From: Alphaproteobacteria bacterium
Lineage (GTDB): Bacteria > Pseudomonadota > Alphaproteobacteria > Micavibrionales > UBA2020
Direction of reading: 5' to 3'
DNA: 64,000 bases
Assembly: GCA_021413445.1 (NCBI GenBank)
Contig: JAIOQI010000064.1
Location: 1-64,000 of the forward strand
In this document: in pieces, positions 42,201 through 59,248 of the stretch
Layout: each line of letters starts with the position of its first letter
Position numbering within the stretch: the stretch's first letter is position 1
Notes under the pieces: model-generated
Seen by the model: only the letters and a program-made list of their open reading frames with translations
Told to the model about the DNA's origin: nothing
Database searches by the model: none
Program-made: the position numbers and the translations under genes

Positions 42201-42462
42201 CATGACTCAGGTTAAGCTCAATCTGCTCACGGCTTTTCTGGATGTGGTCGAAGGTTTTTTGGTCGGTGTTCAGACCAATCAACACCCGAATTTTGTCTGT
42301 CTGTTCAAGCGCGGGGCTGAGCAAATGAAAACCGCTGCTATAGAAATAACCGACAAGGCAATCAAACGCCGTAGTATCGTTGCCAATAAGCGTAATAAAG
42401 CGATCCAATAAGGTTCGCCCCTTTTCATTCGTAATAAATCTAGTATCGGTTGTCATAAACAA
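39268..42462 (-). CDS. SNF2/DEAH helicase with N-terminal phospholipase-D-like domain
   Basis: 1064 residues. Residues ~1-205 are a PLD-like domain with one HKD-type motif (H-A-K at 138-140 and G-S-S-N 158-161), the type used as nuclease or DNA-binding module. Then a superfamily 2 helicase: G-L-G-K-T (280-284), D-E-A-H (353-356), T-A-T-P-Y-N-N, and C-terminal motifs S-G-H-S-S, T-E-V-L-A-E-G-V-N-L and Q-R-V-G-R-I-N-R. The start at TTG 42462 has AGGAG six bases upstream; ATG 42456 is the alternative. With the methylase it forms a helicase-methylase defence operon like those of DISARM- or Hma-type systems, though not identical to any I can name. Confidence 0.85.
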   Translation of the reverse strand: MFMTTDTRFITNEKGRTLLDRFITLIGNDTTAFDCLVGYFYSSGFHLLSPALEQTDKIRVLIGLNTDQKTFDHIQKSREQIELNLSHAETKEVYAQAVVKELEAVEESKEVEGGVRTFIDWLIKKKLEIRAFPEGNLHAKLYIMTHKNARDKGRIVTGSSNFSVSGLTGNLELNVELKDVGDYDYALNKFNELWEKSVDVSDKYVQTVNEKTWLNDGISPYDLYLKLLYEYFQEEINQTGDEDAYIPEDYMKLAYQDQAVTSSVQIIKKYGGVFLSDVVGLGKTYISALLAQRLHKDGRILVLAPPHLLDRNNQGSWTNVFYHFGVSAKYESIGQLDKIIESGTDRYKTVFIDEAHRFRSDDTDTYAKLSQICYGKQVVLVTATPYNNRPSDILSLLKLFQKPHDSTIPNHKNLQHFFNHLENQAKKYDRQTDYDSYIRVVRENARQVRENILKHVMVRRTRTEVLQYFKEDVEQQGLKFPEVAKPEPLLYKLNATEERVFKDTVSLIKTLTYSRYVALLYLNEGLKPQEATAQKNLRGFIKILLVKRMESSIEAFRKTLDRFLRGYEMFLKAYNQGSVYFSAKHSGKIFDALELDNDEDIEKLIESGKAEKYDAKSFNENLKPDLERDIATLKQIIALWEKVDRDPKLLELLEQIKSRKVLQNAKLIIFTEAEVTAQYLAKQLEKETGKRVIAFSGHSSANDRSRIIDNFDAKARSPKDDFDILVTTEVLAEGVNLHRSNVIINYDIPWNPTRLMQRVGRINRVGTKFDKIYTFNFFPTAEVNDEIALQEAAEAKIESFIEMLGADAKLLTENEIATPKGLFDILNSKETVEDEGGAEASDLKYLRIIQSIRDENPELFKKIKTLPRKARSARLEKNAKGSQLVTYFRKGYLTKFITSGKGGTQELDFIGAAKLMECKPDTKAVALATSDQDNLYDLLDKNKAGFAKATEPIDDEPVNMPGSRSTLTRLREFTKIIRKDDRLTDIEQDFLKDVMEALEKGVIPKKTAQKAVQKMEDAKGDILKMLALLRSAVDETFLKPSGKTAKDTTREKREVILSLYQKAD

Positions 42463-42482
42463 AAAAATCTCCTAAGCCTTTA

Positions 42483-42535
42483 AAAAGCTACAGCTTAGGG
42501 GGTACTTTGGCGAGTCAGATGTTTGAAAAGCTACA
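42483..42535. promoter_or_regulatory. direct AAAAGCTACA repeats before the helicase gene
   Basis: AAAAGCTACA occurs at 42483-42492 and 42526-42535, 43 bases apart. A CCTAAGC/GCTTAGG inverted repeat flanks the first copy. They sit in the 124-base gap upstream of the helicase start and could be operator sites. Confidence 0.3.
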
Positions 42536-42586
42536 TAAATTTAATTGCCGATAATTGGGTATTATGGGCAATGGCATTTATCAACC

Positions 42587-43222
42587 CTAAGCGTTCCATA
42601 GCAGGTTATCCAGCTGACGGGGCGTCAGTTTTTGAGAGTATTTTTGTTCAATATCCCTACAGACTCGCAAGCACTTCCCGCAGAATTTCCGGTATTCATT
42701 GTCGGTTTTTGTGTCAGCGTGTACAGCACGGGTAATCTCATCCGAAATCCCCCGAAGAGCTGCAACCGCACGGGTATCAAAGATGAAAAACAGGTGCGGA
42801 AAGTGAAAGTGCAAATATTTTGAAGCCAGAGACCGCTTCTCAAGACCGCTAATTTCTCTGAACAAGCCGGTAAGTTCAAAATGCACGTTCAGAATAACGT
42901 CCAAGCTTTGTTCATTAAGTTCACTGATGCTCTTCAACCTTGAAAACCATGCATCTATCTGCGATTGGCGCATTTTTGGGACAACATTATCGGTATAAAA
43001 TTTTTCTCCCTCGAAAGCCTCATCCGAAGTCTGCCTTCTGCGCTCTATCGCCGCCGCATAAGCCCTGCCGATAAGCCACACTTTGGCATAAATTGCCTGA
43101 TTGTCCGTGTGGTTGGGATGCTTGCTGCAAAGTTCGTACAGTGTCTTATTGCCTAAATCATACATGTACTCCCCAGTAGCGTCTTCAATCATCTGTAGCG
43201 TCAGTTTTTCCATTAAGGCCAC
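42587..43222 (-). CDS. unknown defence-island protein, partner of DUF2779 nuclease
   Basis: 211 residues. GTG 43222 has GGAG six bases upstream, overlapping the end of the DUF2779 gene; this decides the start over ATG 43213. Mostly helical: K-V-W-L-I-G-R-A-Y-A-A-A-I-E-R-R, then G-L-E-K-R-S-L-A-S-K-Y-L-H-F-H-F-P-H-L-F-F-I-F-D-T-R-A near residue 130. This pattern, a conserved Lys-Ser followed by aromatic residues and an F-D-x-R-A, may mark a ligand- or nucleic-acid-binding core. I know no named family. Coupled to the DUF2779 gene and 124 bases upstream of the helicase operon. Confidence 0.6.
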   Translation of the reverse strand: MALMEKLTLQMIEDATGEYMYDLGNKTLYELCSKHPNHTDNQAIYAKVWLIGRAYAAAIERRRQTSDEAFEGEKFYTDNVVPKMRQSQIDAWFSRLKSISELNEQSLDVILNVHFELTGLFREISGLEKRSLASKYLHFHFPHLFFIFDTRAVAALRGISDEITRAVHADTKTDNEYRKFCGKCLRVCRDIEQKYSQKLTPRQLDNLLWNA

Positions 43223-43225
43223 GTT

Positions 43226-44713
43226 TTACTCCATTATTTTTTTGTGCAGAGCATCCGCCAAAACCTTCATGGCACGGGTATCGAGGCCGCAGTATTCGGT
43301 CAGGTCGCGCCAGAGTTTTTCGGTTTCATCCGGCGACAGCTTGCCCTGCATGAAGTCGAGGTATTTCTGCGAGGCGTCCTGGCCGTTGCCGATAGCCATG
43401 CCGTCGTATGACAGGTCAGTAAAGGCCGGGAGGACTTTTTTGATGGTGGCCGACCCGTTCTGGCTGGGGTGGTAGAGCCAGCGCTTCTGGAACGGCACCA
43501 GCAGATCGACCATCCGGGCGTTGATCGCGGCGATTTCTGCGCTGACGGCGGGGTAAGCCAAAATCAGGGCTTCGTTCACGCCTTCCTCGAAAGACTGGTT
43601 ATAAACGATGACACTGCCGTCACTGCCGCACAGCCGTATCAGGGCTTCGATGAAATCCGGGCGCGGGTCTTTGTGGTTTTGGTGCAGGAATGTGTGATGC
43701 CGGAGTTCAGCGCCGGGGCTGTCCTCGATATGCAGGGAGAACTGGAACGGAACGGCCTGGAACGGCCTTGTGCCATTGAAAAGCGGTATCGCGGAGCCGA
43801 CCGTTTCATAGTCGAGATAATAAAGCGGGTATTTCAAGCGCTCCAGAAAACCCCGGATGTTGTCAGGCTCGGCGTAAGTTTCGCCGCTGGTGTAGCTTCG
43901 TACATCCTTCCCCTTGACGCCGCCGGGAATAGCCTGTGCGGGAATGCTCTTGACCTCGTAGCTGCCGAGGCTTTCTACCATCTCGTCGGCTTTTTTGCCG
44001 GAGAAGACGTTGTATATGGAGTAATCGGGAATGCCCTGCCAGCAATGACCGATATAATCGCAGTCGAAGGGCTTGAAGCATCGCGCCCCGATTTTCTCCT
44101 GCGGCTCATCCTTGCCGTCGAGTGTGGTTTTCAGCGCCGGGACCGCCCCGCCGACTTCCGGCTGCTTCGCCAGCACAATGGCGGTGATGTCTTCCAGCTT
44201 GAATAGGCGCTGCGGATCAATCTCTCCGTCCCGCACATATTGATTGTCGATCACCATCATAAAGCATCGGTTGATGCGGTATCCCGCGCCCGTGAAGACG
44301 CGGTACTGGAATGACATATCGTCATGGTGGTAGTCCTTGACGCTGCTCGAACCCTTCACTTCGATCATATCCCAGGCATCCGCGCCGGGGGCTTTTCGCA
44401 GGATGTCGATGCGCGCATGCGTCCCATCCTGCGCGTGGATAGCGGTCGCCTCGAATATCGTGTTATGCCCTGCGGCGATGAGGGCCGCTGTTGCCCCCGT
44501 GCCTTCCTGCGTTTTGTAATAAGGCACTTTTACCTCAACGCCGCCGGGGAAACGTTTCTTCGCCCATTCCCCGACCTCGTTCCCGGCATCAAAGATCGCC
44601 TGTTTCACGGCATCGAACGGGGGCGTCAGGTCTTTGCGGTTCAGGGAAAACCATAGAGCTTTCGAGCACTGGCAGCCTTTGACGTATTGAGACTTGGATA
44701 TAGTAGGTTTCAT
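43226..44713 (-). CDS. DUF2779-family nuclease (Cas4-like plus RNase H-like domains)
   Basis: Start at ATG 44713 with GAGGGA gives 495 residues; an upstream in-frame start at 44752 has weaker support. The N-terminal half resembles Cas4/PD-(D/E)XK proteins: C-x-C-S-K-A-L-W near the start, D-x-I-E-V-K-G-S (catalytic E-x-K, about 110), and a Cys motif C-D-Y-I-G-H-C-W. The C-terminal half carries Y-Y-L-D-Y-E-T-V (DnaQ-like exonuclease Asp/Glu) and V-I-V-Y-N-Q-S-F-E, ending in Y-C-G-L-D-T-R-A-M. Function is not established for the family; a DNA end-processing nuclease is likely. It is divergent from the HTH-GTPase gene, from which 169 bases with operator repeats separate it. Confidence 0.78.
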   Translation of the reverse strand: MKPTISKSQYVKGCQCSKALWFSLNRKDLTPPFDAVKQAIFDAGNEVGEWAKKRFPGGVEVKVPYYKTQEGTGATAALIAAGHNTIFEATAIHAQDGTHARIDILRKAPGADAWDMIEVKGSSSVKDYHHDDMSFQYRVFTGAGYRINRCFMMVIDNQYVRDGEIDPQRLFKLEDITAIVLAKQPEVGGAVPALKTTLDGKDEPQEKIGARCFKPFDCDYIGHCWQGIPDYSIYNVFSGKKADEMVESLGSYEVKSIPAQAIPGGVKGKDVRSYTSGETYAEPDNIRGFLERLKYPLYYLDYETVGSAIPLFNGTRPFQAVPFQFSLHIEDSPGAELRHHTFLHQNHKDPRPDFIEALIRLCGSDGSVIVYNQSFEEGVNEALILAYPAVSAEIAAINARMVDLLVPFQKRWLYHPSQNGSATIKKVLPAFTDLSYDGMAIGNGQDASQKYLDFMQGKLSPDETEKLWRDLTEYCGLDTRAMKVLADALHKKIME

Positions 44714-44781
44714 TATTTCCCTCTTTCTAATGGTTATAGTAAATCTAACCAATTGATAAAAATAGTAAAATAGTAAAATAA

Positions 44782-44835
44782 AAACGTTTCTTAAAAAAAA
44801 TGAAACGTTTCTTTACAAACTATAAAACGTTTCTT
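44782..44835. promoter_or_regulatory. three phased AAACGTTTCTT repeats (operator)
   Basis: AAACGTTTCTT starts at 44782, 44803 and 44825, i.e. spaced 21 and 22 bp, two helical turns, with a palindromic AAACGTTT core in each. They fill the intergenic region between the DUF2779 and HTH-GTPase genes, the position expected for autoregulation by the HTH domain. Confidence 0.7.
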
Positions 44836-44882
44836 ATAGTCATAGCAGTGATTCTTATTTTTTAATCTTTTAGGAGCAGCAA

Positions 44883-47012
44883 ATGAAAAACAACGCCGCA
44901 AGACAGCACGAAATTGGGCACTACTTAACAGAAATTCGTGAAAATGCAGGAATAAAACAAGCAGACCTTGCTCGAAAAATTACCTGGAGTCAGGCGGTGC
45001 TTTCTCGGGTCGAAGCTGGAGAGCGAGATTTAAGCTCGGACGAATTAGAAGCCGTTTTAAAAGCCATTGGCACAAAGGATGCCTTATCCTTATCTGATCG
45101 GCTTAATAGGACATGGGAAATATTGCCAGCACCACCGCTGAACCATCCGGATCAAGATATTCTGTGGGCAGCAGAAGAGGTCGCTAAAGAACTGGCGGCA
45201 CTACGATCAAGGCCGGATATTAAACATGCTTTTGAGCGCCGTCTGACAGAGTATCTGTCTGAATTTCAAAATAATGCAAGTCTGCTCCTCAAACGCACCC
45301 ATCAAATAGCCTTTGTAGGCAGTATAGGTATTGGTAAGTCAACAGCTATATGCCGTTTAACTGGCCTTGAGATAGCCAGCCAAGATGGCGGGCCATCCCC
45401 AGTATTGGAAGCGGGTGCTGGCGGGATTACAATTTGCGAGGTGCAGCTTCAACAGGGGCCTGACTATGGAATCAGAATTGAGCCTCGTAGTGATGAAGAA
45501 ATTCGTGCAGATATTGCCGATTTTGCAGAGCATATCCGAAAAGGCGACTTAGATAACTCATCAGAAACAGACGGTGATTCTCAAGGCATTTCAAAAGAAA
45601 TAGAACGTGCCTTAAGGAACATGACGGGTTTGGGGGTGCGCCGTGAAAAAGATTCCGATGGAAAAACTATACGCCGCGATGAGGCAAGGGAACTCAGCCA
45701 GACATTGAACTCAACAAGAGAACTGATTGTTGAGATGCTTGCAAAAATGGAAATTCACCGGAGGGACCGTCGGGATATTTGGTATCCTGCCAGCGCGGAT
45801 AAGCCCCCCCTTGTCTGGCTTAAAGAGACTTTCGAGCAGATCAATAATGGACGCCATCCTGATTTCACGCTTCCTAAGCGAATTGACGTTATAGTTCCGC
45901 ATGAGCTAGTTAAAGGCTCTGATCTCACAATTCACATTATTGACACTAAAGGTATAGACCGTACAGCGGCCAGAGCGGATTTGGAGGGGCACTTTGATGA
46001 TTCTCACACTCTGTCTGTTCTTTGCTCTGGTTTCAACAACGCACCAGCGGCTGAGGCACGGCTTTTACTAGAGCGGGCAAAGGAAGCTGGTGTCAGGGGA
46101 TTGGAGCTGAATGCCTCTCTATTAGTGTTGCCACGTACAAACGAGGCCCTCGCAGTAAAAGATGAAACGGGCATACGGGTCGAAACCGTTGAGGAAGGCT
46201 ATGAACTCAAGGGAGAACAGGTTGAAATGGCTTTGGAGCCAATAGGCCATAAGTTTTCAATTGGCTTTTTTAATGCTTATGAAGATGACCCGGATAAGCT
46301 GCGTGAATTCTTGATTGGCCGTCTTACTCAAGTAAGACATTCTTTCCGAAAAAAAATGGAAGAAATCACAGACAACGCAAAGAAACTTTTAAACAATCAT
46401 GAGCAAGAACAAACACAAGAAGTTATTCGTCAGGCTGCCAAAAACCTTCAAAGTTGGATTGCGCAAAATGCAAACGTGCCTACATTAAATGCGCATATTC
46501 AAGACAGTTTAATGAATGCAATGTCGAATGTATACGCGAGTACCCTTCGGGCAACAATACGACGGGATGGAGAATGGCAGAACCTAAGCTACTCTCACCA
46601 CCTTGGTTACGGCGCACGTCTTATGGCAGCGGCGTCATTAAGCAGACTTGTAGAAAACTTTACTAGCCTTTGTAAGACGCTGACCGGAAACTCTGAATAT
46701 GCGGATGCGCAAGATTTAATTAATCAAGCTGATCGTGTCTTGCAAACATCTTTTGATGAGCTTCTTCGCAAATTACAACTCATGGGGCAAACTTCTTTTC
46801 GTGAAGCTCTGAAACTTGATGCTGCATTTTGGTCGGGATGCGATAACGAGTGGGGGAAAGGGCCGGGATATAAGAATCGTGTTACAAATCGCAATGAAAT
46901 ATGGTTCAAAGATACAGCAAGGCAAGAACTTGAAAGCGAGGTTCGGGCACTTATAAAGCGTGAATGGTCTCAAACACTGACCCGCGTAAAAAGTCTTTTT
47001 GACACCGAGTAG
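44883..47012 (+). CDS. HTH-XRE domain fused to dynamin-like P-loop GTPase
   Basis: 709 residues, ATG 44883 behind AGGAGCAGCAA. Residues ~9-62 are a Cro/C1-type helix-turn-helix (I-K-Q-A-D-L-A-R-K-I-T-W-S-Q-A-V-L-S-R-V-E-A-G). Then a large P-loop domain: F-V-G-S-I-G-I-G-K-S-T (Walker A, 144-154), a G-G-I-T switch threonine near 182, and I-I-D-T-K-G-I (DxxG, Asp354). No clear N/T-K-x-D motif. The C-terminal ~220 residues are long helices as in dynamin stalks. Such proteins remodel membranes or sense infection; a repressor domain on the same chain is unusual. Three operator-like repeats precede the gene. It could be a self-regulated defence switch. Confidence 0.75.
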   Translation: MKNNAARQHEIGHYLTEIRENAGIKQADLARKITWSQAVLSRVEAGERDLSSDELEAVLKAIGTKDALSLSDRLNRTWEILPAPPLNHPDQDILWAAEEVAKELAALRSRPDIKHAFERRLTEYLSEFQNNASLLLKRTHQIAFVGSIGIGKSTAICRLTGLEIASQDGGPSPVLEAGAGGITICEVQLQQGPDYGIRIEPRSDEEIRADIADFAEHIRKGDLDNSSETDGDSQGISKEIERALRNMTGLGVRREKDSDGKTIRRDEARELSQTLNSTRELIVEMLAKMEIHRRDRRDIWYPASADKPPLVWLKETFEQINNGRHPDFTLPKRIDVIVPHELVKGSDLTIHIIDTKGIDRTAARADLEGHFDDSHTLSVLCSGFNNAPAAEARLLLERAKEAGVRGLELNASLLVLPRTNEALAVKDETGIRVETVEEGYELKGEQVEMALEPIGHKFSIGFFNAYEDDPDKLREFLIGRLTQVRHSFRKKMEEITDNAKKLLNNHEQEQTQEVIRQAAKNLQSWIAQNANVPTLNAHIQDSLMNAMSNVYASTLRATIRRDGEWQNLSYSHHLGYGARLMAAASLSRLVENFTSLCKTLTGNSEYADAQDLINQADRVLQTSFDELLRKLQLMGQTSFREALKLDAAFWSGCDNEWGKGPGYKNRVTNRNEIWFKDTARQELESEVRALIKREWSQTLTRVKSLFDTE

Positions 47013-47090
47013 AGAACCTAAAATTCTTAATATGTGCTGGATATGGCTAGATAGGTTAATTTTCAAACTGACCCACCACCTAAAATTGCC

Positions 47091-48845
47091 TCATGATCTA
47101 AGAACGACGCGGGCGTATCGCTTAATGTCAGTGGTCAACTTCGCCTTTAGTATCCGAGCCACATAACTCTGATTCTTAAAATAGTTCGCGTAGGACAATT
47201 CCTCCCCCTCACGCTTTGAGTAGCTTCGCGTTTCCTTTTTATAAGCCAAAAGAATTTGGTCGATGCATGCTTTCGTCAGCTTACGCCAATTGCTGTGATG
47301 CGCTGAATTATACTCCGTCCATTGTCCGCTAAGCTGTCCGGTTAAATCGGAGTCGCCCCATTTTGCGCCGACCTCCGTCAAAGCTCGAACTACAAGACTA
47401 AAGAGCGCGAAATACTCATAGGTTTTTAAACTTCGGATGTAAACTTTATCCGTCGCCAATCTGCTGCGGCTTTCCCACAACACGTTATCGAGAAAGTAAA
47501 GCTGGAAAGCCAGTTCAGCCGATGTTTCGCGAATTTTTTCGTAAATATCCCCTTCAAATAAATCCGCCACATTTTTTGCAACAGCTGGACCTAAGCGCTG
47601 TTTTGACCAGTAAAAACTTGCAATCAACTGCGTATGCCATTTAATGCTTGTTCCATATTGAATTCCGACACTACGCAGTTCACGACTGCGCTGCCTCCAT
47701 TCGCGGTCGCGCCGCTCATAGAAGTACCCTTTATTGCGGAAGAAGCGGAACAACTCTAATTGGAAGTCATCATTTGAAGCCAAATCCCAACTCTTGATTG
47801 GGTTCTGTTGATTACTGCGCACGGCAATCTTTCCGATGACTTCCTTGCGTTGCTGGATTTTCTGGTCTAGCGCATCGCCACGCGGGGGTTCAATCTCAAT
47901 AACTCGAACCATGACACGGGCGTTGGCCGAAGGATTTGGCACGTCACGGATACTGTGCAGTGTCTGTGACCCATTTACCACTCGTGGGTTATCCAAGGTC
48001 AGTATCTTTCCGCCTGGGTCGTAATGCTGCTTCTCGCAAAGCATTGTGATACCATTGTTACTAAACGCGAACTCCTTAGGGCTCGTCTCGAACGTATGAC
48101 GAATTCCTTGATTTACTTTTGAGCGCGAAACACTGATGGCGACACGCACATTACGATTAAAGAGCAGGTCAAAAGGGTCGCTCTCCATGTACCGGATGAA
48201 ATCTACCAGCCGCGCGAATACGATGGATGTTGCCACCTCCGTGTCGGACTTATCTGCTGGGAGGAGCGCGTGAATCGCATTGAGATGAATTGGGGGTGTG
48301 CGCGGCATCGCGCCATCTATGTCGTCTACAAGGCACTGTATTAGGTCTTCCATGTGGAACACCTTTAGCGCTGGGATGTTTTTTACCTGTTCAAAATGAG
48401 CATCATTGCAACGATGATTGGTGACGAACATCAATTCAGCCGCACCGCTATCGTAACGCTCAAACAGATGCTTGTACCGAGGTCTGAGTTCTGGCTTTAC
48501 GGCTTTTTCCAGGTAGGCGGCGCGGGCAGTGCGGTTTTCAAAAGCCTGCCAAAAATATTTGATTTCTTGATAGAAGGAGGGGGGCGCAATCTTGCTGAAC
48601 TCCTTCGTGAATTTCGTGTTGAGGACGTGATGCAGAACAGTCTTACCGTTGTCTGTAGTAAAGAATAAGTCAATCTTACCGTCTTTTGAACCATCGGACA
48701 CAAAGATGTCACGTGGACTCATAAAGAACAGTTCGGCAAACCATCGACCAAACGCTTGCGGTTCAGCATCAAGATGTTGTTTCTGAGTTTCCTTCACACG
48801 TTTGAGCATGAACTCAAAGAGGTCGCTCTTATGTTGTATTGACAT
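47091..48845 (-). CDS. AIPR-family (abortive infection phage resistance) protein
   Basis: 584 residues. The hallmark AIPR core is present: F-N-R-N-V-R-V-A (about 225), F-A-F-S-N-N-G-I-T-M-L-C, N-P-R-V-V-N-G-S-Q-T-L-H-S-I and V-R-S-N-Q-Q-N-P-I. The N-terminal 150 residues contain G-K-I-D-L-F-F-T ... H-H-V-L-N-T-K-F, similar to a PD-(D/E)XK nuclease active site. Family members were first described in lactococcal abortive infection plasmids. It is monocistronic and convergent with the GTPase gene (78 bases between stops). Confidence 0.82.
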   Translation of the reverse strand: MSIQHKSDLFEFMLKRVKETQKQHLDAEPQAFGRWFAELFFMSPRDIFVSDGSKDGKIDLFFTTDNGKTVLHHVLNTKFTKEFSKIAPPSFYQEIKYFWQAFENRTARAAYLEKAVKPELRPRYKHLFERYDSGAAELMFVTNHRCNDAHFEQVKNIPALKVFHMEDLIQCLVDDIDGAMPRTPPIHLNAIHALLPADKSDTEVATSIVFARLVDFIRYMESDPFDLLFNRNVRVAISVSRSKVNQGIRHTFETSPKEFAFSNNGITMLCEKQHYDPGGKILTLDNPRVVNGSQTLHSIRDVPNPSANARVMVRVIEIEPPRGDALDQKIQQRKEVIGKIAVRSNQQNPIKSWDLASNDDFQLELFRFFRNKGYFYERRDREWRQRSRELRSVGIQYGTSIKWHTQLIASFYWSKQRLGPAVAKNVADLFEGDIYEKIRETSAELAFQLYFLDNVLWESRSRLATDKVYIRSLKTYEYFALFSLVVRALTEVGAKWGDSDLTGQLSGQWTEYNSAHHSNWRKLTKACIDQILLAYKKETRSYSKREGEELSYANYFKNQSYVARILKAKLTTDIKRYARVVLRS

Positions 48846-49144: not shown

Positions 49145-49579
49145 TTATTCCGGAAGGTCGCATCCTTCTTTCGGGTATACCTTATCCTCTGGATACTCCA
49201 TTAAGGGAGGACATTTCTTAAAGCTTTCTTCGGGTCGGCAATATCCGATAAGCCATGTAAGGCTCGCTGCGTCATACGTACTGTCTACTGAGTGAAATTT
49301 ATCTGCTCTAACTACAAAGGTAGCCAGCCTATATGCTCCGTACCCGTTCTTCGCTCTAAGCGTTCCGCATACGGCCTGCCCAAGATGATTAGTTACAACA
49401 AACGCGTCACCAAATTTTGCCGCGTCTGGGTCATCTAGGACTGAACGAATAATATCTTCTGCCTGCTCTATCGTGATAGAGCCAGTTATATGTTTGCCAG
49501 CTTGATAAACGGCCAGTGCAGGCTGCGATATACTCAGCATCGAAACCAAAGCCAAAACTATCATAGTTGATCTACGCAT
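49145..49579 (-). CDS. small secreted protein of unknown function
   Basis: ATG 49579 has GAGAGGG 5-6 bases upstream and gives 144 residues; an upstream in-frame start (49615) would lie inside a terminator hairpin. Signal peptide of about 23 residues ending A-L-A. The mature part begins with a helix (I-T-I-E-Q-A-E-D-I-I-R-S-V-L), then D-P-D-A-A-K-F-G-D-A-F, V-C-G-T-L-R-A-K-N-G-Y-G-A-Y-R, and three further Cys near the C-terminus. This D-P-x-x-A-x-F ... V-C-G-x-x-x-x-K-N style is common in small periplasmic proteins of unknown function. The strong terminator immediately upstream suggests its expression depends on read-through. Confidence 0.68.
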   Translation of the reverse strand: MRRSTMIVLALVSMLSISQPALAVYQAGKHITGSITIEQAEDIIRSVLDDPDAAKFGDAFVVTNHLGQAVCGTLRAKNGYGAYRLATFVVRADKFHSVDSTYDAASLTWLIGYCRPEESFKKCPPLMEYPEDKVYPKEGCDLPE

Positions 49580-49599
49580 TCTTACCCTCTCAGGCTGGT

Positions 49600-49634
49600 T
49601 AAACAAAACGGTCACCAGATTTCTCTGGTGACCG
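49600..49634 (-). terminator. very strong rho-independent terminator
   Basis: An 11-base perfect stem, CGGTCACCAGA (49609-49619) with TCTGGTGACCG (49624-49634), around a GAAA tetraloop on the minus strand, followed by TTTTGTTT. It ends 21 bases before the ATG of the secreted-protein gene. Confidence 0.88.
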
Positions 49635-49815
49635 GGTCGTTGATAACCGTCCGAAGGCGGTGCAGTGTATTCACACTTGCGCGCTGTTGTATTTCACTGC
49701 CGACCCGACCATAAGGTCGAGAGGCAGCACCACACATAACGGCCTGATGCTTTTGGCCGTTCGGACGGGTTATCACACCCGGCAACCCCGAATGGGGTCA
49801 CTGGTTAGACGGTAG
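49600..49815 (-). ncRNA. candidate multi-branched structured RNA / attenuating leader
   Basis: On the minus strand a 14-base stem with one bulged C (GATAACC-C-GTCCGAA near 49778-49764, TTCGGAC-GGTTATC near 49658-49643) encloses three hairpins: ACGGCC/GGCCGT near 49738-49760, CTGCC..CGACC-TTAT-GGTCG..GGCAG near 49697-49728, and AGTGT-GAAT-ACACT near 49664-49677. An ACCCC-ATTC-GGGGT hairpin lies 5' of it and an 11-base terminator hairpin 3'. No coding frame is convincing. It follows the stop of the PD-(D/E)XK gene by about 55 bases and precedes a secreted-protein gene, so it could be a riboswitch-like attenuator or a 3'-UTR small RNA. Confidence 0.6.
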
Positions 49816-49852
49816 CTGGGAATCAGTGTAATTTCAATAAATTAGGGCGATA

Positions 49853-51055: not shown

Positions 51056-52015
51056 TTATAGTATAGCAGCTGCGTTCCCATGAAACAAAGAGCCATTTCT
51101 TATGTATCTAGCAAGCATGGCGTCCGATTTATGGCCTGTCTGCTCCCGGATTTTAAATGATGATATGCCAGCCATTGCCGCGCTGGTGGCGAGGCCGCTG
51201 CGGAGGCTATGACCGGAAAACTTCTCCGGTGACAATCCCACTTTTCCCACCCGCGCCTTGATGATATTGGCCATTGAGCGGTCGCAGAGGTGCATCTCGG
51301 TGACGATGCCCTTGTCGATGCCCCGAAAGATATACCCGGACGTAATTCCGGAACGCACCAGCCAGTCTTGCAGGATGCGAACGGGGCATATTTTCCCGCG
51401 CCCGAAGGGAACGCCTATCTTCCGGCCTTCGCCTGTCTGGTCCGTCTTGCTGCGGGGAAGGGTCAGGACAAGCCCCTCGGACGTGAACGCTAAGTCCTCG
51501 TGCCGAACGCGGCAAAGCTCCGAGCGCCGTAATGCCCCGCAGAACCCTAGCAGCAGCAAAGCCTTGTCTCTTGCCCCGCGCAGATCGTCGGGCGTATAAG
51601 AAAGCACCAGCAGAAGGTCGTCACGGCACAATGGACTGACCTGTTCTTGGGGTTTGCCATGCGTCCGGCGTATTCCGCGCATCGTCATGCGAATTAGGTC
51701 ATTCGTCGCTGGGGAAGGGTATCCCTGCATGGTATGCGCTTTCGAGATAGCGGCTAAGCGCCTTGTCAGCGTTGCACAGGACAGCAGCCCCGCGTGGGCC
51801 GCGAGGTACTCGGCCAGCATTTCAGGGCTGCATGGAATAGACCCGCCCCATGCCTTGTAATGCTCTAAATCAGCCCGGTACGCCTTTCGAGTGTTTTCCG
51901 ACACTGCCCGGTCAAGGTATTGACTAACTGATTCATTATTTGCAACTGATTGCAATTTTCTATTCGTTTCATGCAATTGATTGCAAGGGCTGTTATCAGG
52001 TCGCACTTCAGTCAT
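51056..52015 (-). CDS. second tyrosine recombinase (XerC/D-like)
   Basis: The start at ATG 52015 overlaps the upstream stop by 8 bases (ATGACTGA), giving 319 residues; the frame stays open to 52072. N-terminal core-binding domain (S-E-N-T-R-K-A-Y-R-A-D-L-E-H-Y-K-A-W), then the catalytic domain: first Arg in G-A-L-R-R-S-E-L, H-S-L-R-S-G (His and second Arg), G-H-K-S-D and the Tyr nucleophile in L-A-R-Y-I-R. This is unlike the P4-type integrase at the tRNA and may act inside the element. Two copies of the TTGCAATTGATTGCAA palindrome lie within its first 80 bases. Confidence 0.88.
   Translation of the reverse strand: MTEVRPDNSPCNQLHETNRKLQSVANNESVSQYLDRAVSENTRKAYRADLEHYKAWGGSIPCSPEMLAEYLAAHAGLLSCATLTRRLAAISKAHTMQGYPSPATNDLIRMTMRGIRRTHGKPQEQVSPLCRDDLLLVLSYTPDDLRGARDKALLLLGFCGALRRSELCRVRHEDLAFTSEGLVLTLPRSKTDQTGEGRKIGVPFGRGKICPVRILQDWLVRSGITSGYIFRGIDKGIVTEMHLCDRSMANIIKARVGKVGLSPEKFSGHSLRSGLATSAAMAGISSFKIREQTGHKSDAMLARYIRNGSLFHGNAAAIL
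51940..51986. repeat. two TTGCAATTGATTGCAA-type palindromes inside recombinase gene
   Basis: TTGCAACTGATTGCAA at 51940-51955 and ATGCAATTGATTGCAA at 51971-51986, 31 bp apart (three helical turns), within the N-terminal codons of the recombinase. Each differs by one base from the copies at 30993-31008 and 53997-54012. Confidence 0.65.
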
Positions 52016-53138
52016 TCTTCGCCTCCGCCGCTGAGAATAAATCCGCTTCTGCCCCGTACAGGCTGCGTTCAAGCTGTTTCAGCCGGAGTTCATTGTATAA
52101 ATCCCAGTGTTTTATCAGGGTGCGGGTGAGAACGGCGTATTCCTGCTGGTCAAGGCCAAGATCGAGCATTAACGCGTGAATGCTGCTCTCCCTGAACCTA
52201 TCCAGAGCATCCGAGGTCAGACGCTGGTCTATATTCTCGCCGCAGATGAAAAACAAGGTTTCGCCCAACTGCGCTGGGGTGTAGCCCTTCAATGCCGGTA
52301 CGGTCTTTTGTAGCTGCCGGACGCTGGCCTGACCTATCCTTGTATATAGCGGGTCGATGGCAAAGGCGGGGACAGTCTCGAACTCCGGCGACGACAATGG
52401 CCGCTCCTGATGCACCCGCAAATCCGTCTTCTGCTGTTCAAAGATTGTCCATGCCAGCGGCATAAAAAGAGGTAGGGGATACGGCATGTCCCGCAGAACG
52501 GCGATACAGGTTTCCGTCAGTTCCGGCGGTGCTGGGAGCCGCCTGAGTGCGTCCGCAGCAACCGCTATATCGCCCGTCCGTGTGAACCCCTTTGCCGGGT
52601 AAGCCTTTGTCCCAGCCAATGCCCAAAGAGCAGTAAAGCGTTCATGCGGCTGCCTGTCTGGGTCGAGTATGATATTACCAAGTTTCTTATTTCCTGCCTT
52701 TTCCGCGCATGTCCGAGCTTTGGCTGTCTCTACGGAGAGGTCGATATAGAACAGCATCTCTGTGAGGTACCGAGATTTGACAGACGCCGCCATTTTTCGG
52801 GCTAGATGCACGGCCAATTCCGTGTCGCCTATTTCACGCCGCCATACCGGACATTTATAGGCAGCTACTACCTCCTGCACCACATCGGGACCACCCATGC
52901 TGCAATCCTCGAATGCTGTGACCAGTAATCTCCGCCATAGCATCCGGCGGTCGGCGTATGCCAGAGGCAATGCGAAGGATGCAGCCAGCTTCTGGTCACC
53001 CCGCCTGATACTTTTCTGCAATCCCGAAGCGGCGACCCATTTATCACAGCCGATAATCGGGATACGTTTCAGGCCGGTAGCGGGAATTTCTGCGGCAAGT
53101 CGGGTTAGGATGGATTGGAAGCTGAAGGATGAAAGCAT
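52008..53138 (-). CDS. unknown island protein with possible RarA/clamp-loader-like helical domain
   Basis: ATG 53138 with AAGGG upstream gives 376 residues; the frame opens at 53168. N-terminal half: L-Q-K-S-I-R-R-G-D-Q-K-L-A-A-S-F-A-L-P, then R-R-M-L-W-R-R-L-L-V-T-A-F-E-D, which resembles the C-terminal helical part of RarA/MgsA-type AAA+ proteins, but no Walker motif is present. The rest is helical with no known motif. It is coupled to the recombinase gene by an 8-base overlap, pointing to an accessory role for DNA recombination or replication restart. Family assignment is tentative. Confidence 0.55.
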   Translation of the reverse strand: MLSSFSFQSILTRLAAEIPATGLKRIPIIGCDKWVAASGLQKSIRRGDQKLAASFALPLAYADRRMLWRRLLVTAFEDCSMGGPDVVQEVVAAYKCPVWRREIGDTELAVHLARKMAASVKSRYLTEMLFYIDLSVETAKARTCAEKAGNKKLGNIILDPDRQPHERFTALWALAGTKAYPAKGFTRTGDIAVAADALRRLPAPPELTETCIAVLRDMPYPLPLFMPLAWTIFEQQKTDLRVHQERPLSSPEFETVPAFAIDPLYTRIGQASVRQLQKTVPALKGYTPAQLGETLFFICGENIDQRLTSDALDRFRESSIHALMLDLGLDQQEYAVLTRTLIKHWDLYNELRLKQLERSLYGAEADLFSAAEAKND

Positions 53139-53220
53139 TTTGTTTCCCTTGTGATTGAGTATGTACACAAGAAAACGTTAACTTCAGACGGCTGTAAGGC
53201 AATGAAAAAACGATTAAAAA

Positions 53221-53814
53221 TTAGTGCCTGATGGTAGCGCCCGTTACCCACAGATCAAATATCTTGTCTGTTTTGCGCTCGTAAGTCCTGCGGTGCATCC
53301 GGAGAGGTCTGGGCGGCATGTTTGTTGCGAAATCACCATCCCCGCCAAGCTCTCTATGTATTTCTTCAGCACGCTCGTAGAGATTCCATTTTGTCCACTG
53401 GAGCTGACTGCGATAGCATAGTCTCCAGCATTTCCGGCACTGCATCGGCGTATCTTTGAATAAGTACAGTGTTGTTGTCCTTTCACTGCATCCGGGGCAA
53501 CAGAACCAGTACCGCGTTCCGCCATAGTGGGGAGTGGTACGTTCTATATGCGCTTGAAAAGGCGCATCATGCGCATGGTGCTGCATGGTTATTACACCCT
53601 TTCCATCCGGCTTGGCTTCTAACGTAAAGGCGGCGCTATGAGTAACCTCACCTCCCATCGACCATGACAGGTCAAAAACGCGCCAATTAAGCTGACCTTC
53701 TGTACATTTCAAAAGCCCATTATCCTTCAAACATTTCGTATTCACAGAACAGAAATGATCGGTTGTCACCCGACGAGAAAATCCTTTACGCCTGCCTGAC
53801 CATCTTCCCCCCAT
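53221..53814 (-). CDS. zinc-ribbon protein of unknown function
   Basis: Start at ATG 53814 (M-G-G-R-W-S-G-R-R) gives 197 residues. N-terminal basic segment with C-S-V-N-T-K-C and a beta-rich middle. The central zinc ribbon reads C-C-P-G-C (105-109) ... C-R-K-C (126-129) after W-F and before W-R-L-C-Y, like transposase- or regulator-associated ribbons. The C-terminus is basic (R-P-L-R-M-H-R-R-T-Y). Likely a small DNA-binding protein. It is the first gene of the recombinase operon, upstream of 52008-53138 by 82 bases. Confidence 0.65.
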   Translation of the reverse strand: MGGRWSGRRKGFSRRVTTDHFCSVNTKCLKDNGLLKCTEGQLNWRVFDLSWSMGGEVTHSAAFTLEAKPDGKGVITMQHHAHDAPFQAHIERTTPHYGGTRYWFCCPGCSERTTTLYLFKDTPMQCRKCWRLCYRSQLQWTKWNLYERAEEIHRELGGDGDFATNMPPRPLRMHRRTYERKTDKIFDLWVTGATIRH

Positions 53815-54145
53815 AGCTATTCTCCTCATCCCTAGGCTGTACAAAATTTACCATTCTTGCCGAAATCATTAAGGAGAGGTCGTTTGAGCGTGCAGATACT
53901 CAGCCTTTCCTGAGTTGATTATACACCCGTTCAGGCACTATATGAATCAAGAAATCCTATAGCTTATTCAGCTTTGCAGAAACAGGTGACGGAATATTGC
54001 AATTGATTGCAAAACACTATTTTTAACCATCACTTCTATAAAAAAGGTTTTGTCAGGCTTTTACCAAGGACACAGGACACCCCCTTAGGGTGTTGTCCCT
54101 GTCTGTCTCCTCTCTTTGGGCGTTTCTTGGTTTCCTGTTTGTCCA
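53815..54145. other. 331-base intergenic region with palindromic site
   Basis: No gene is supported. At 53997-54012 lies TTGCAATTGATTGCAA, followed on the plus strand by AAAACACTATTTT, very like the promoter-operator at 30980-31010, so a plus-strand transcript antisense to the helicase gene's 3' end is possible. Near 54065-54095 an imperfect GGAC-ACCC/GGGT-GTCC hairpin may end minus-strand transcription. Confidence 0.45.
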
Positions 54146-55282
54146 TCATTTGTCCCCCTGTCCATGTATCCAGACGAAATCCTTATGACTTAGTATGATA
54201 CCCTCCTTTTCCAACGTCCCAATGGCTCGCTTTATGGCCTTGTTGACAGCCTCCTCCTTATCAGAAGAGGAAATGCCAGCAGTTTTCAACGCTTCACGGA
54301 AATCACTCATAGAGACGGCAGTGACGGGCATACCCCCAACATGGATATGCTCTTCGCCCTTTTCGGCTATCAGCTCTTCCAGTACATCAAAAGCAAGTTT
54401 GGCTGCGCCCGACAGCTTCGGCTTGTTTGCCGGAGCGACAGTAGGGATGAGAACGCAGGAAGTTATTGCCTCTCCATCCTCATCCTTTCCGATTTCAACA
54501 GGATCAAGGCTGAAGTGAAACTTACTGCCAGTGGGCTTATCCCGCTGTTTTTTGACCTCTGCGGTGACTATATTATTGCTTTTGGTCACTTCTATCTCCG
54601 TATCGACTGCTGCCCGTAATGAGCTATGGCCCCGCGCACCCCGGCCGCTCTCTTTGCCGGAATGATGGATGATCGAGATATGCGCCTTTGTTATCTCCCG
54701 AATTCTGTCGCAGTTAATGATAAAGGCTCCCATATCCTCCGAACTGTTTTCATTGCCGCCGGACATGGCACGGCTCAAGGTATCAATTACAACAAGCACA
54801 ACGTTTTCATGCTTCTGAATTTCCTTGATAAGCTCCAACGTGTCGTTCCCGGACGTGCACAGGTTAATGCCGACATGGATAACGCGGAGAGGAGCATGGC
54901 CTTTCATCCCATGACGGAGCCTGAAAGCCTCCAGACGCTCCTCGATACCAAGGCCACCCTCTGCAGCAATATAGATGACCGTTCCCTGCCGAACCTTATA
55001 GCCGCACCAGTCGCTGCCCAAGGCAACGTGTATGGCAAGGTCGAGCAGCAGGAAGCTTTTCCCACAGTTGCTCTCACCGAACACAACGCTCATAGCTGTT
55101 CTATCCAGCAACTTTTTGACTAGATGCTCTCGTTTCGTGCATTTTTTAAGCTCTGCCCAGGCGACGGATACGATTACCTTCTTTTTGTTATCCTGTTCCA
55201 GAGGAAATGCATTACTGATGCTGTCCTTGACAGCCTGTAGGCCGTGTTTTTGGTGCAGGTCGTTGAAATCCATGCTTTGCAT
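54146..55282 (-). CDS. RepA-like hexameric replicative helicase/ATPase
   Basis: 378 residues. RecA-fold ATPase of the phage/plasmid RepA group: Walker A G-E-S-N-C-G-K-S-F (about 69-77), Y-I-A-A-E-G-G (about 105), Walker B V-V-L-V-V-I-D-T-L-S-R (about 160), and S-I-I-H-H-S-G-K (about 205) followed by R-G-A-R-G-H-S-S. The C-terminal 100 residues look like a winged helix. It unwinds DNA for replication of the mobile element. The upstream toprim gene ends 2 bases before its start, forming a primase-helicase pair. Confidence 0.83.
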   Translation of the reverse strand: MQSMDFNDLHQKHGLQAVKDSISNAFPLEQDNKKKVIVSVAWAELKKCTKREHLVKKLLDRTAMSVVFGESNCGKSFLLLDLAIHVALGSDWCGYKVRQGTVIYIAAEGGLGIEERLEAFRLRHGMKGHAPLRVIHVGINLCTSGNDTLELIKEIQKHENVVLVVIDTLSRAMSGGNENSSEDMGAFIINCDRIREITKAHISIIHHSGKESGRGARGHSSLRAAVDTEIEVTKSNNIVTAEVKKQRDKPTGSKFHFSLDPVEIGKDEDGEAITSCVLIPTVAPANKPKLSGAAKLAFDVLEELIAEKGEEHIHVGGMPVTAVSMSDFREALKTAGISSSDKEEAVNKAIKRAIGTLEKEGIILSHKDFVWIHGQGDK

Positions 55283-55284
55283 GA

Positions 55285-56118
55285 TTATTCCTCCCTTGGG
55301 TATGCGAGAAAGCCGCCGACTGCCGCTACGGCAGCTCTGGCTTGGGTTAGACCGGGGTTGCCGGGGATCTGAGCATCGTTATCAGCACAAATGACGATCT
55401 TAATATCAGGAAATTTGGTCCTGAATGCTTTAGCGACGGGCTGGAGGTTCCCCGTATCGAATGCGACTGCTACGGCATGGCCCACTGCCTCATGAATGCT
55501 AGCTGCAGTTGCATAGCCTTCAGCGATATAAATGGCCTCCGAAGGTTGACCGATAATATAGCAGCATCCTTTCTTCATACCCCCTGAAAGAAATCGTTTT
55601 TCGCCATCAACTCCAATGAACTGTAAGCTGTGCAAAACACCATCCGTATCCTGAAGAGGGATAACAAGCCTTTCCTTGGATTGACGTAAGCCATAGTTTT
55701 TGACCATCTTTTTAGTCAGATAGGAATGGTCATCTGAAGCAGGTGGTGCAGCTTGCCAAATAGAGGCTGCCCTTTCACGGGCTTGCCGTTTTATTTTCTG
55801 GTACTCCTCTTCAAATGCTTTCTGTGCAGCCTCCATTTGCTGCTTCCATTTTTCCTGCTCTTCAGGTGTCATGGAATGTGGATCTTTTGCATACCACCTT
55901 TCCTTGATGCCGCGCCTCCAGCAGCCAAAAATCATCATCTTCACATCACCCCAAAAAATGATATACCAGCCATTTTTGGTGCCAGACTTGTCGCCTTCGA
56001 CATGAAAGCGGTGAAGCTTGCCATCCATATAAAGGCTGCTATGGTTTTTTAAACCGGCTGCCTCCATTACCTGCAGGAACCGTGCAACTTCAGTTACTGG
56101 GAGATTGTTCTCTTGCAT
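55285..56118 (-). CDS. toprim-domain primase-like protein
   Basis: 277 residues. N-terminal region with a G-W-Y-I-I-F-W-G-D segment, a charged helix of about 50 residues, then a toprim domain: A-I-Y-I-A-E-G-Y-A-T-A-A-S-I (conserved Glu near 200) and I-V-I-C-A-D-N-D-A-Q (Asp-x-Asp near 245). This is the small primase type in P4-like satellites and integrated plasmids, working with the neighbouring RepA-like helicase. Gene spacing is 2 bases on both sides. Confidence 0.82.
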   Translation of the reverse strand: MQENNLPVTEVARFLQVMEAAGLKNHSSLYMDGKLHRFHVEGDKSGTKNGWYIIFWGDVKMMIFGCWRRGIKERWYAKDPHSMTPEEQEKWKQQMEAAQKAFEEEYQKIKRQARERAASIWQAAPPASDDHSYLTKKMVKNYGLRQSKERLVIPLQDTDGVLHSLQFIGVDGEKRFLSGGMKKGCCYIIGQPSEAIYIAEGYATAASIHEAVGHAVAVAFDTGNLQPVAKAFRTKFPDIKIVICADNDAQIPGNPGLTQARAAVAAVGGFLAYPREE

Positions 56119-56120
56119 GA

Positions 56121-56750
56121 TTAACCTCCTAAGACTTTGATGCTGTCAGGTTGAACCATGAATGACTCATTAGCGTTTCTAGATATCACTTGCCCGCTAA
56201 TTTCGACCTCGAGAAACCCTTCTGTCTGAAGCAGCCTGTCAAACCCATCAAGTCCGGATGAGATAAATACCAAGGTATTTCCGATATCCATCGATTCATT
56301 CCTCTCCCCCTGGAATGACAGGACACTAAAGCGTGGTTCTTTATCCCAAAACATTGCTCCGCGAAGAGTAATTTCCGGACTGATTTTCGCTTCAAGCAAT
56401 TTCTCTATCTCTTTGCCACCCCTTTTTATCTCCATAATCAAAAGGTTTGCTTTAAGCTCTGAAATTTCCTTGTGTTTACGCTGTGTGGGAAAAGGTATTA
56501 CATTGTCGCTATAGTTTTTGATTTCGCACCCATCTTTCTGGTCTATCTGCGGACATTCTTCCTGTGAATACTCTTCAAGCCAGGGAAACTCCTTTATAGC
56601 CCTTTTCTTAATAGGGGTAGCGGCCAGCCACAGCAGAAACTCTAGTTTCTCTTGAGCCATAGCCTTCTTTTTGGAAGGGGTCTTTGAAGAACACAAAGCA
56701 TTCACGCAATTCCTTATTCCAATGAGAATCTCGGGTTCTTTCTTTTTCAT
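56121..56750 (-). CDS. unknown small island protein
   Basis: 209 residues between AlpA (4-base overlap) and the primase gene. It begins M-K-K-K-E-P-E-I-L-I-G-I-R-N-C, is mixed alpha/beta, and carries L-L-I-M-E-I-K-R-G-G-K-E-I-E-K-L-L and E-G-F-L-E-V-E-I-S-G-Q-V. No recognised motif. It is in a polycistronic unit with the replication genes, so a regulatory or replication accessory function is likely. Confidence 0.55.
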   Translation of the reverse strand: MKKKEPEILIGIRNCVNALCSSKTPSKKKAMAQEKLEFLLWLAATPIKKRAIKEFPWLEEYSQEECPQIDQKDGCEIKNYSDNVIPFPTQRKHKEISELKANLLIMEIKRGGKEIEKLLEAKISPEITLRGAMFWDKEPRFSVLSFQGERNESMDIGNTLVFISSGLDGFDRLLQTEGFLEVEISGQVISRNANESFMVQPDSIKVLGG

Positions 56751-56989
56751 TTTGCACCTCCTTCCTTAGCGTTAGCAGCTTCTTTATGCTTGCGCGTGGC
56801 TTCAGCACATTTCTGAATGAACTGATCAATTTCAGACTTCAACCATCCAACACTTCTGTTGCCTAGCCGGACGTAGCGCGGAAAAGTTCCTTCAGCAATC
56901 CAGGCATATATGGTCGAGCGCGAGAGGCCGACGATTTCCATGACCTCCGCGAGCCTTAATATTCGTTCGTTGATTCGATTGTTGTCCAT
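56747..56989 (-). CDS. AlpA-type MerR-like regulator/excisionase
   Basis: 80 residues: R-I-L-R-L-A-E-V-M-E-I-V-G-L-S-R-S-T-I-Y-A-W-I-A-E-G-T-F-P-R is the AlpA helix-turn-helix with the wing, followed by V-R-L-G-N-R-S-V-G-W-L-K-S-E-I-D-Q-F-I. These proteins switch on the integrase and act as excisionases in P4-like islands. It stands at the head of the primase-helicase operon; the 150 bases upstream contain inverted ACGCTA/TAGCGT motifs that may be its operator. Confidence 0.88.
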   Translation of the reverse strand: MDNNRINERILRLAEVMEIVGLSRSTIYAWIAEGTFPRYVRLGNRSVGWLKSEIDQFIQKCAEATRKHKEAANAKEGGAK

Positions 56990-57142
56990 AGATATCCTCC
57001 TTGATTTGTTGCGGTTTATTAGTGTCCAAGCAAGATAGCTGACGAATCGACAGTTGAAAATTACGCTAGGTAACCTTGCGTATAAGCAAAGTTATTTAGC
57101 GTATGCTAAAATGAGACTATTAACCTCAGGGAACGCTTCTGC

Positions 57143-57739
57143 TTATGCGGCTTTTATTTCTGCACGCAACTTTTCAAAAGCTTGATATGTCTTAGGATTG
57201 TCATCCGGAAATGGTCTTTTAACCCCTAAAAGCCATTCATGTCTTATATTAGAAGATATTTCCCTGATTGCTACAGGATATGCCTTAGTTAACCTTTTAA
57301 GCTCATGGTATGCAGTTCGACAATTAGTCGGCGAAAGCTTGCGCCACTTTGCGAATGTCCGAAACGAAGAATTGGCGCTTGCTCCATGACGAACCAAGCC
57401 GCACATAAAAAGTGCCTCATCGAATTTTATTTCTGCAGTTACAATACGATTTCTTGTAAGTATACGAATATTATGGGCCAAGTCTTGAAGACTTTCTCCA
57501 ATCGGGATTTCCGCTTCTTCGAGAACAATTTCGAGAGCTATCGCAAGAAAATACGACTTATATAATTTAGAAATTTTACTAAGCGCAACATAGTCTCTGA
57601 TTATTGCAGCATTATCCTCACTGTAGGGGGACCATATAAAGTCATCGATTTTTAACTTTGGTTTTTTTATCTTATCCCACATACGGCTATATCTTTTTAC
57701 ATCACTCTCACGAACATTTTTTATATCTTGCGGGTCCAT
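57143..57739 (-). CDS. unknown protein between integrase and AlpA
   Basis: 198 residues with an AAGGAAG ribosome site. Largely helical; a hydrophobic helix K-S-Y-F-L-A-I-A-L-E-I-V-L-E-E-A near residue 70 and T-R-N-R-I-V-T-A-E-I-K-F-D-E-A-L-F-M-C-G-L. No motif is recognised. Its place next to the integrase suggests element maintenance rather than cargo. Confidence 0.5.
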   Translation of the reverse strand: MDPQDIKNVRESDVKRYSRMWDKIKKPKLKIDDFIWSPYSEDNAAIIRDYVALSKISKLYKSYFLAIALEIVLEEAEIPIGESLQDLAHNIRILTRNRIVTAEIKFDEALFMCGLVRHGASANSSFRTFAKWRKLSPTNCRTAYHELKRLTKAYPVAIREISSNIRHEWLLGVKRPFPDDNPKTYQAFEKLRAEIKAA

Positions 57740-57786
57740 AGTCTTCCTTTCGTAGATTTAGTTTAAGAAAGCATAAAATGTTTCAA

Positions 57787-59010: not shown

Positions 59011-59172
59011 GGGGGTATCGTCCTTTCCTGGTTGAAAAAATGCCCCCGTAGATACCCCCAAATTGGTCGGATTGGGTCGGTTTTCCACGGATCAAGACGG
59101 ACTTCAGATGATCTGAAACCCGTTGTTTTACTAGCGTTTTTGATGAATGCCGGAATATACCGGAAGTATGAA

Positions 59173-59248
59173 TGGCGTCCCCTGGGGGATTCGAACCCCC
59201 GTTACATCCGTGAAAGGGACGTGTCCTAGGCCTCTAGACGAAGGGGAC
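59173..59248 (-). tRNA. tRNA-Glu (anticodon TTC)
   Basis: Cloverleaf on the minus strand: acceptor GTCCCCT/AGGGGAC, D-arm with GTCTAGAGGCCTAGGAC, anticodon stem CGTCC/GGATG around CTTTCAC (anticodon TTC), T-arm GGGGGTTCGAATCCCCC, discriminator G and encoded CCA. It bounds the integrated element, whose integrase gene lies just beyond its 3' end. Confidence 0.95.

Follow-up and report, generated by a model that had tools for sequence, protein, structure and literature searches.

The window (the whole stretch of 64,000 nucleotides that we analysed) carries on its minus strand, at 49601-49801, a structured RNA, followed by a ribosome-binding site (RBS; GAGAGGG) and the gene of a 144-aa secreted protein (49145-49591, ATG at 49579), which has no match in Pfam or PADLOC. 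The RNA lies in an island in which an integrase adjoins a tRNA gene and which also encodes AlpA, Toprim and AAA proteins and carries genes of defence type, an arrangement reminiscent of a P4-like satellite or an integrative element; the window contains no att repeat of the tRNA 3' end, and Rfam at the gathering cutoff reports two tRNAs only. The integrase, the AlpA regulator and the Toprim primase-like and AAA_25 helicase-like genes occupy 54146-59248 (minus strand), and the defence-type cargo (a PLD+SNF2 helicase, a DUF2779 protein, an HTH protein with a P-loop-like motif and an AIPR/AbiU-like protein) occupies 39268-48845. Upstream of the tyrosine recombinase, two ORFs (52011-53168 and 53221-53844, minus strand) encode proteins with lengths of 386 and 207 aa that match nothing in Pfam or PADLOC.

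The original prediction of a folded minus-strand RNA of about 200 bases was confirmed: the minimum free energy (MFE) of 49590-49830 (minus strand) is -108.2 kcal/mol, as compared to a shuffle mean of -74.4 (z = -7.07, 0/200 shuffles), and the MFE structure contains the internal hairpins and the 5' hairpin that had been described. The plus strand of the same region folds nearly as well (z = -6.5), because inverted repeats fold on both strands; we assigned the RNA to the minus strand since a conserved promoter-like element, the terminator and the downstream gene all fit it. The 14-base closing stem of the prediction exists as 14-15 bp in the MFE structure (UGAUAACC.GUCCGAA with UUCGGACGGUUAUCA), but it is more complex than a single stem: a small hairpin (CGGG-UGUGAUAA-CCCG) contributes its loop as the outer half, and this loop is paired to a downstream strand. 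Further helices overlap (CGGCC/GGCCG with GCAUC/GGUGC, and GGUCGGGUC/GACCCGGUC), which makes this a multi-pseudoknot RNA or else a switching RNA.

From 5' to 3' on the minus strand, the module is preceded by a putative promoter (TTGAAA-17-TACCGT, 49809..49837), to which a generic promoter scan gave no hit; in 14/29 homologues, TTGA precedes the module by 50-75 nt, as compared to 3.4 in shuffles (maximum 8). The RNA starts with the P0 hairpin (GACCCC-AUUC-GGGGUU, 49784..49799, seen in the MFE structure), in the place of which homologues have a variable hairpin; the Rfam c4-a1b1 model aligns over it, with a score (13.5 bits, E = 0.77) far below the 46.7-bit cutoff. The P2 hairpin follows (49766..49781, 99% paired, with compensatory changes), and its loop UGUGAUAA is a1, a candidate decoy copy of the target. 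Next come the b1 strand (GUCCGAA, 49760..49766), which overlaps the last base of P2, and the inner overlapping helices CGGCC/GGCCG and GCAUC/GGUGC (49727..49759, 96-97% paired, with compensatory changes), which form a pseudoknot or are alternatives to each other.

The putative antisense core (C4/Xcc1-like, 49622..49710) folds alone to an acceptor-like stem plus two hairpins, and its processed 5' end is predicted at UAU^GGUC, matching the start of P1 C4. The two strands of the acceptor-like stem (49702..49710 and 49630..49638) covary and are 93-94% paired; in homologues, a segment of the 3' strand (CUCCCCGG) is complementary to the Shine-Dalgarno (SD) sequence. Between them, b' (UUCGGAC, 49649..49655) pairs with b1, and a' (UUAUCAAC, 49639..49646), mostly single-stranded in the folded core, pairs with a1. 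The module ends with an intrinsic terminator (49601..49634; hairpin 49634-49609 of 11 bp with a GAAA loop, tail TTTTGTTT ending at 49601), located 21 bases from the ATG just as predicted, and the predicted order of structured leader, terminator, RBS and gene likewise holds and is conserved across dozens of genomes.

Compensatory changes, which the prediction had proposed looking for among relatives, are abundant. In a 29-row alignment, the 46 pairs of eight helices are 96.0% paired with changes on both sides in 27 pairs, and 0/500 shuffles did as well on any measure. Sliding the partner columns by 1-3 positions lowers the pairing to 30-55%, a control that takes account of the relatedness of the rows, which the shuffle counts ignore. 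Double changes are found in 5/5 pairs of a1 with a' and in 5/5 pairs of b1 with b' (94% paired), i.e. in all 10 pairs of these two helices. The acceptor-like stem, P2 and the CGGCC/GGCCG helix, which are outside our covariance model R1 (built from 29 loci), are 95.6% paired on a 53-row alignment made with R1 (0/500 shuffles). Several helices are mutually exclusive (a1/a' and the free core; the base of the acceptor-like stem and that of the terminator; CGGCC with GGCCG or with the b' side), which is the pattern that a switching RNA would show.

Using blastn, we identified homologues in 36/94 genomes of the order Micavibrionales, and the genome of the window contains a second copy; plasmids, E. 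coli genomes and phages searched by blastn gave no match to the module. R1, whose E-values are rough, finds copies in 96/142 genomes of the order (74/98 good ones, with up to nine copies per genome) and in 43/385 sampled genomes across the class Alphaproteobacteria, including that of the window and three others of its order. Many R1 matches have only 30-80 bits and may belong to a second subtype; those of 60-80 bits (e.g. L031 and L103) probably do, with a different middle domain and several copies per genome. At L096:1178-1362 (minus strand), a second module copy is inverted relative to the first, at a distance of about 140 bases. Of 44 loci, four are near tRNA genes.

At curated cutoffs, the Rfam scan gave no match at 49601-49801, but the 3' part of the RNA matches sRNA-Xcc1 (RF02221) below threshold (45.8 bits, E = 4e-7, as compared to a gathering cutoff of 53 bits) over the full length of the model (positions 1-87 of 87), including the conserved acceptor-like stem and core. 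Among the relatives scanned, 16/18 match this model (38.9-49.7 bits), and sRNA-Xcc1 itself was found in 58/399 sampled proteobacterial genomes. It has been detected as an RNA of about 100 nt, 88 nt by RACE (PMC2996969), and is present in integron cassettes (PMC12444791). Reading upstream of Xcc1 loci, we found that the 88-nt RNA is the 3' part only, preceded by a 5' half outside the Rfam model that consists of GGGG-loop-CCCC, a variable strand and then CCGCA...UGCGGUAUUUUUGUGCC. Of 23 Xcc1 loci on which R1 was tested in turn, 17 match, and in 16 the match spans the whole length from leader to core (E down to 2e-9). The two types share the antisense core with its acceptor-like stem, two hairpins and AAUACAA motif, and, in the full loci, the 5' decoy half and the match to the RBS. 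They differ in the position of the U- or T-run: a U-run between decoy and core is seen in 23/29 Xcc1 loci and in 0/53 loci of the window type, whereas a T-run (T-rich tail) behind the core is seen in 1/29 and 49/53, respectively. Genes downstream of Xcc1 include those of antirepressor-type proteins (Bro-N, KilA-N, Rha, P22_AR) and SymE.

The same arrangement of parts is found in C4 of phages P1 and P7 (RF01695, RF03163), where the order is promoter-a1-b1-C4-a2-b2-gene (a1, b1, C4, a2, b2, icd in the P1 record). P1 C4 and the window core have in common a three-way junction, b' in hairpin 3, a' in the 3' junction and UAU^GG at the 5' end, and the window also has the upstream decoy, its a1/b1 pairing with a'/b'. 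C4 is cut by RNase P, b' hides the RBS and a' gives the specificity (PMC5320573); both UAU^GG and an NCCA after the acceptor-like stem (47/53 homologues) are sequence signs that would fit RNase P processing of the window type. The window differs from C4 in the sequences of the hairpins, in the downstream gene (not icd/ant) and in having a terminator after the core. The C4 model RF01695 has no match in the window at E<=10 (P1 C4 itself scores 68.8). A model of the Xcc1 leader only, run against 38 kb of P7 and P1 DNA, has the c4 leaders as its two best matches (E = 2e-4 and 6e-4) but does not match the window's own module, so that the sequence link from the window to C4 runs via Xcc1.

IsrK of the Salmonella prophage Gifsy-1 (RF01394), whose read-through mRNA is silent (untranslated) until a short terminated RNA from the same promoter activates it in trans (PMC4825925), resembles the window type as a leader RNA with a terminator. 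The terminator of IsrK, however, lies before the antisense region and that of the window type after it; an IsrK-type U-run terminator between decoy and core occurs in 0/53 homologues of the window type, and the Rfam isrK model scores 11.2 on the window (cutoff 50). By description, the P4 CI RNA with seqA/seqC is also alike, with complementary copies up- and downstream of a processed antisense RNA (PMC4825925), but CI works through premature termination, unlike the mechanism proposed for the window type. Taken by its parts, the window type appears to be a C4/Xcc1-type variant, the new element being a predicted terminator of its own between the antisense RNA and the gene. Only C4, c4-a1b1 and c4-2 bore the Rfam clan CL00128 in these scans, and we found no paper joining Xcc1 with C4 in the literature, mostly that available without subscription (the main Xcc1 paper is a subscription paper); one that names both has them as separate annotations.

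The proteins encoded downstream of the module (in homologues, the start codon lies a median of 24 nt after the end of the match) are mutually unrelated, with five similar pairs among 53, and include lipoproteins, HsdM and a hexapeptide transferase. Of the 45 that are <=260 aa long, 35 have a hydrophobic segment, as compared to 22/88 neighbouring ORFs (p = 9e-9), and 14 have a lipobox-like signal (2 in the background; p = 4e-6); by these counts, which use simple hydropathy rules and unannotated background ORFs, the downstream genes are enriched for putative small envelope proteins. Together with the antirepressor-type proteins and SymE behind Xcc1, this suggests, as a speculation, mobile-element cargo that is kept silent, perhaps for superinfection exclusion. 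The downstream envelope proteins of L001, L012, L006 and L030, including the 144-aa protein of the window, share a weakly similar region (dP..a.F ... CG.v.AKN.fG.y) without a Pfam match. Members of a small protein family (..PMQAGLQ..RMMAAGD..Y..FTYISPWIKNIWNAAADIIE) are encoded behind the RNA at L136:7448-8008, L137, L024 and L018. One viral contig, which also carries this family, encodes a LexA/S24-like repressor and a serine recombinase next to the module (protein identities judged by eye).

We compared the antisense strand of each locus with its own downstream RBS and with those of other loci in permutation tests. For 52 Alphaproteobacterial loci, a' plus CUCCCCGG fits the own RBS with z = 4.6 (1/50000 permutations; control region z = -0.4), and CUCCCCGG alone with z = 4.7 (0/50000); in the held-out subset alone, the values are 2.1 and 2.4, respectively. 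The signal in this set is confined to a' and the SD-complementing segment, b' against the RBS not being significant. Among Xcc1 loci, the core 3' strand fits the own leader (z = 9.7) and the own downstream RBS (z = 8.4; control DNA z = -0.3; 0/50000 permutations); in one Xcc1-type example (L061), the core CUUGUUGCGGUUUUCGG faces the RBS CCGAAAAGGAGCAACAAG, with the SD in the mismatched middle. Whole-duplex energies were noisy as a test of pairing (z = -2.7 for the Micavibrionales set), local complementarity on defined segments being clearer. The window copy itself fits its own RBS weakly (rank 7 among 29 targets and 20 among 29 RNAs; not significant alone), and antisense control of the neighbouring gene, supported for the family, is for this copy presumed from its membership.

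The layout of leader, terminator and RBS had led the original prediction to a riboswitch or attenuator of no known class. Such an RNA, sensing a metabolite or a protein, would let a ligand on the conserved core decide whether the acceptor-like stem or the terminator forms, the two having four bases in common on one side; the conserved core motif, the pseudoknots and the terminator directly before the RBS would all suit it. We nevertheless consider it unlikely and the claim unsupported, because the downstream genes form no coherent set and the RNA shares its parts and fold with the C4 and sRNA-Xcc1 antisense RNAs; moreover, the hypervariable strands match the RBS, and Xcc1-type relatives retain the core but lack the 3' terminator. 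A stand-alone sRNA acting in trans on targets elsewhere, with the adjacent gene incidental, seems just as improbable: the promoter-like element, the terminator and the detection of sRNA-Xcc1 as a short RNA speak for it, but homologues stand directly before an RBS and ORF and are complementary to that RBS, and the own genome has no site with <=3 mismatches to the 18-nt target beyond the module itself. Derivation from the 3'-UTR of the upstream recombinase/393-aa operon, also raised in the original prediction, is disfavoured and very improbable; the RNA would start about 67 nt after the stop codon of the same-strand 393-aa ORF, but homologues lie behind differing genes and have TTGA-N17-TA at a fixed upstream distance. 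An attC-like folded single-strand DNA site through which the small ORF behind it would be mobilised as a cassette is scarcely credible, as an RNA is indicated by where promoter, terminator and RBS stand, by the match to the RBS and by G-U pairs among the covarying positions, and no conserved 3' cassette boundary is visible by eye, against which stand the variable but self-complementary outer strands, the many unrelated small ORFs and the occurrence of sRNA-Xcc1 in integron cassettes.

The module observed here, with its structure, covariation, common layout and group-level antisense fit, is probably a C4-type antisense-RNA control module, for which we infer the following steps of transcription, processing, repression and switching. 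Its own promoter would produce an RNA of about 200 nt, the 5' half of which would carry, as a decoy, a copy of the downstream ribosome-binding region (a1/b1), and the 3' half of which would be the core of about 88 nt with its b'/a' strand held by the decoy. Most transcripts would end at the terminator; RNase P would probably cut at UAU^GG and free the core, which would then pair with the SD region of any read-through mRNA and keep the gene off. The gene would be on when read-through occurs while decoy RNA or failed processing keeps the core occupied. Since the terminator lies behind the core, the short RNA would hold decoy and antisense together, and termination would act as the first brake and antisense pairing as the second.

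More tentatively, C4, IsrK and sRNA-Xcc1 may form one superfamily of self-addressed antisense modules, of which the Alphaproteobacterial members would be a portable cassette with a relocated terminator and a private pairing code for each copy, used beyond phage immunity for silencing small envelope proteins until a trigger such as phage infection. If so, sRNA-Xcc1, long annotated as a solitary sRNA with a link to virulence, would gain a direct mechanism, namely control of the adjacent gene, and three RNAs that are kept apart in Rfam would be united. As the pairing code differs from copy to copy, nature may have provided here a collection of RNA switches with low crosstalk, and Micavibrio-type bacteria would possess a large set of small envelope genes that are probably silent.
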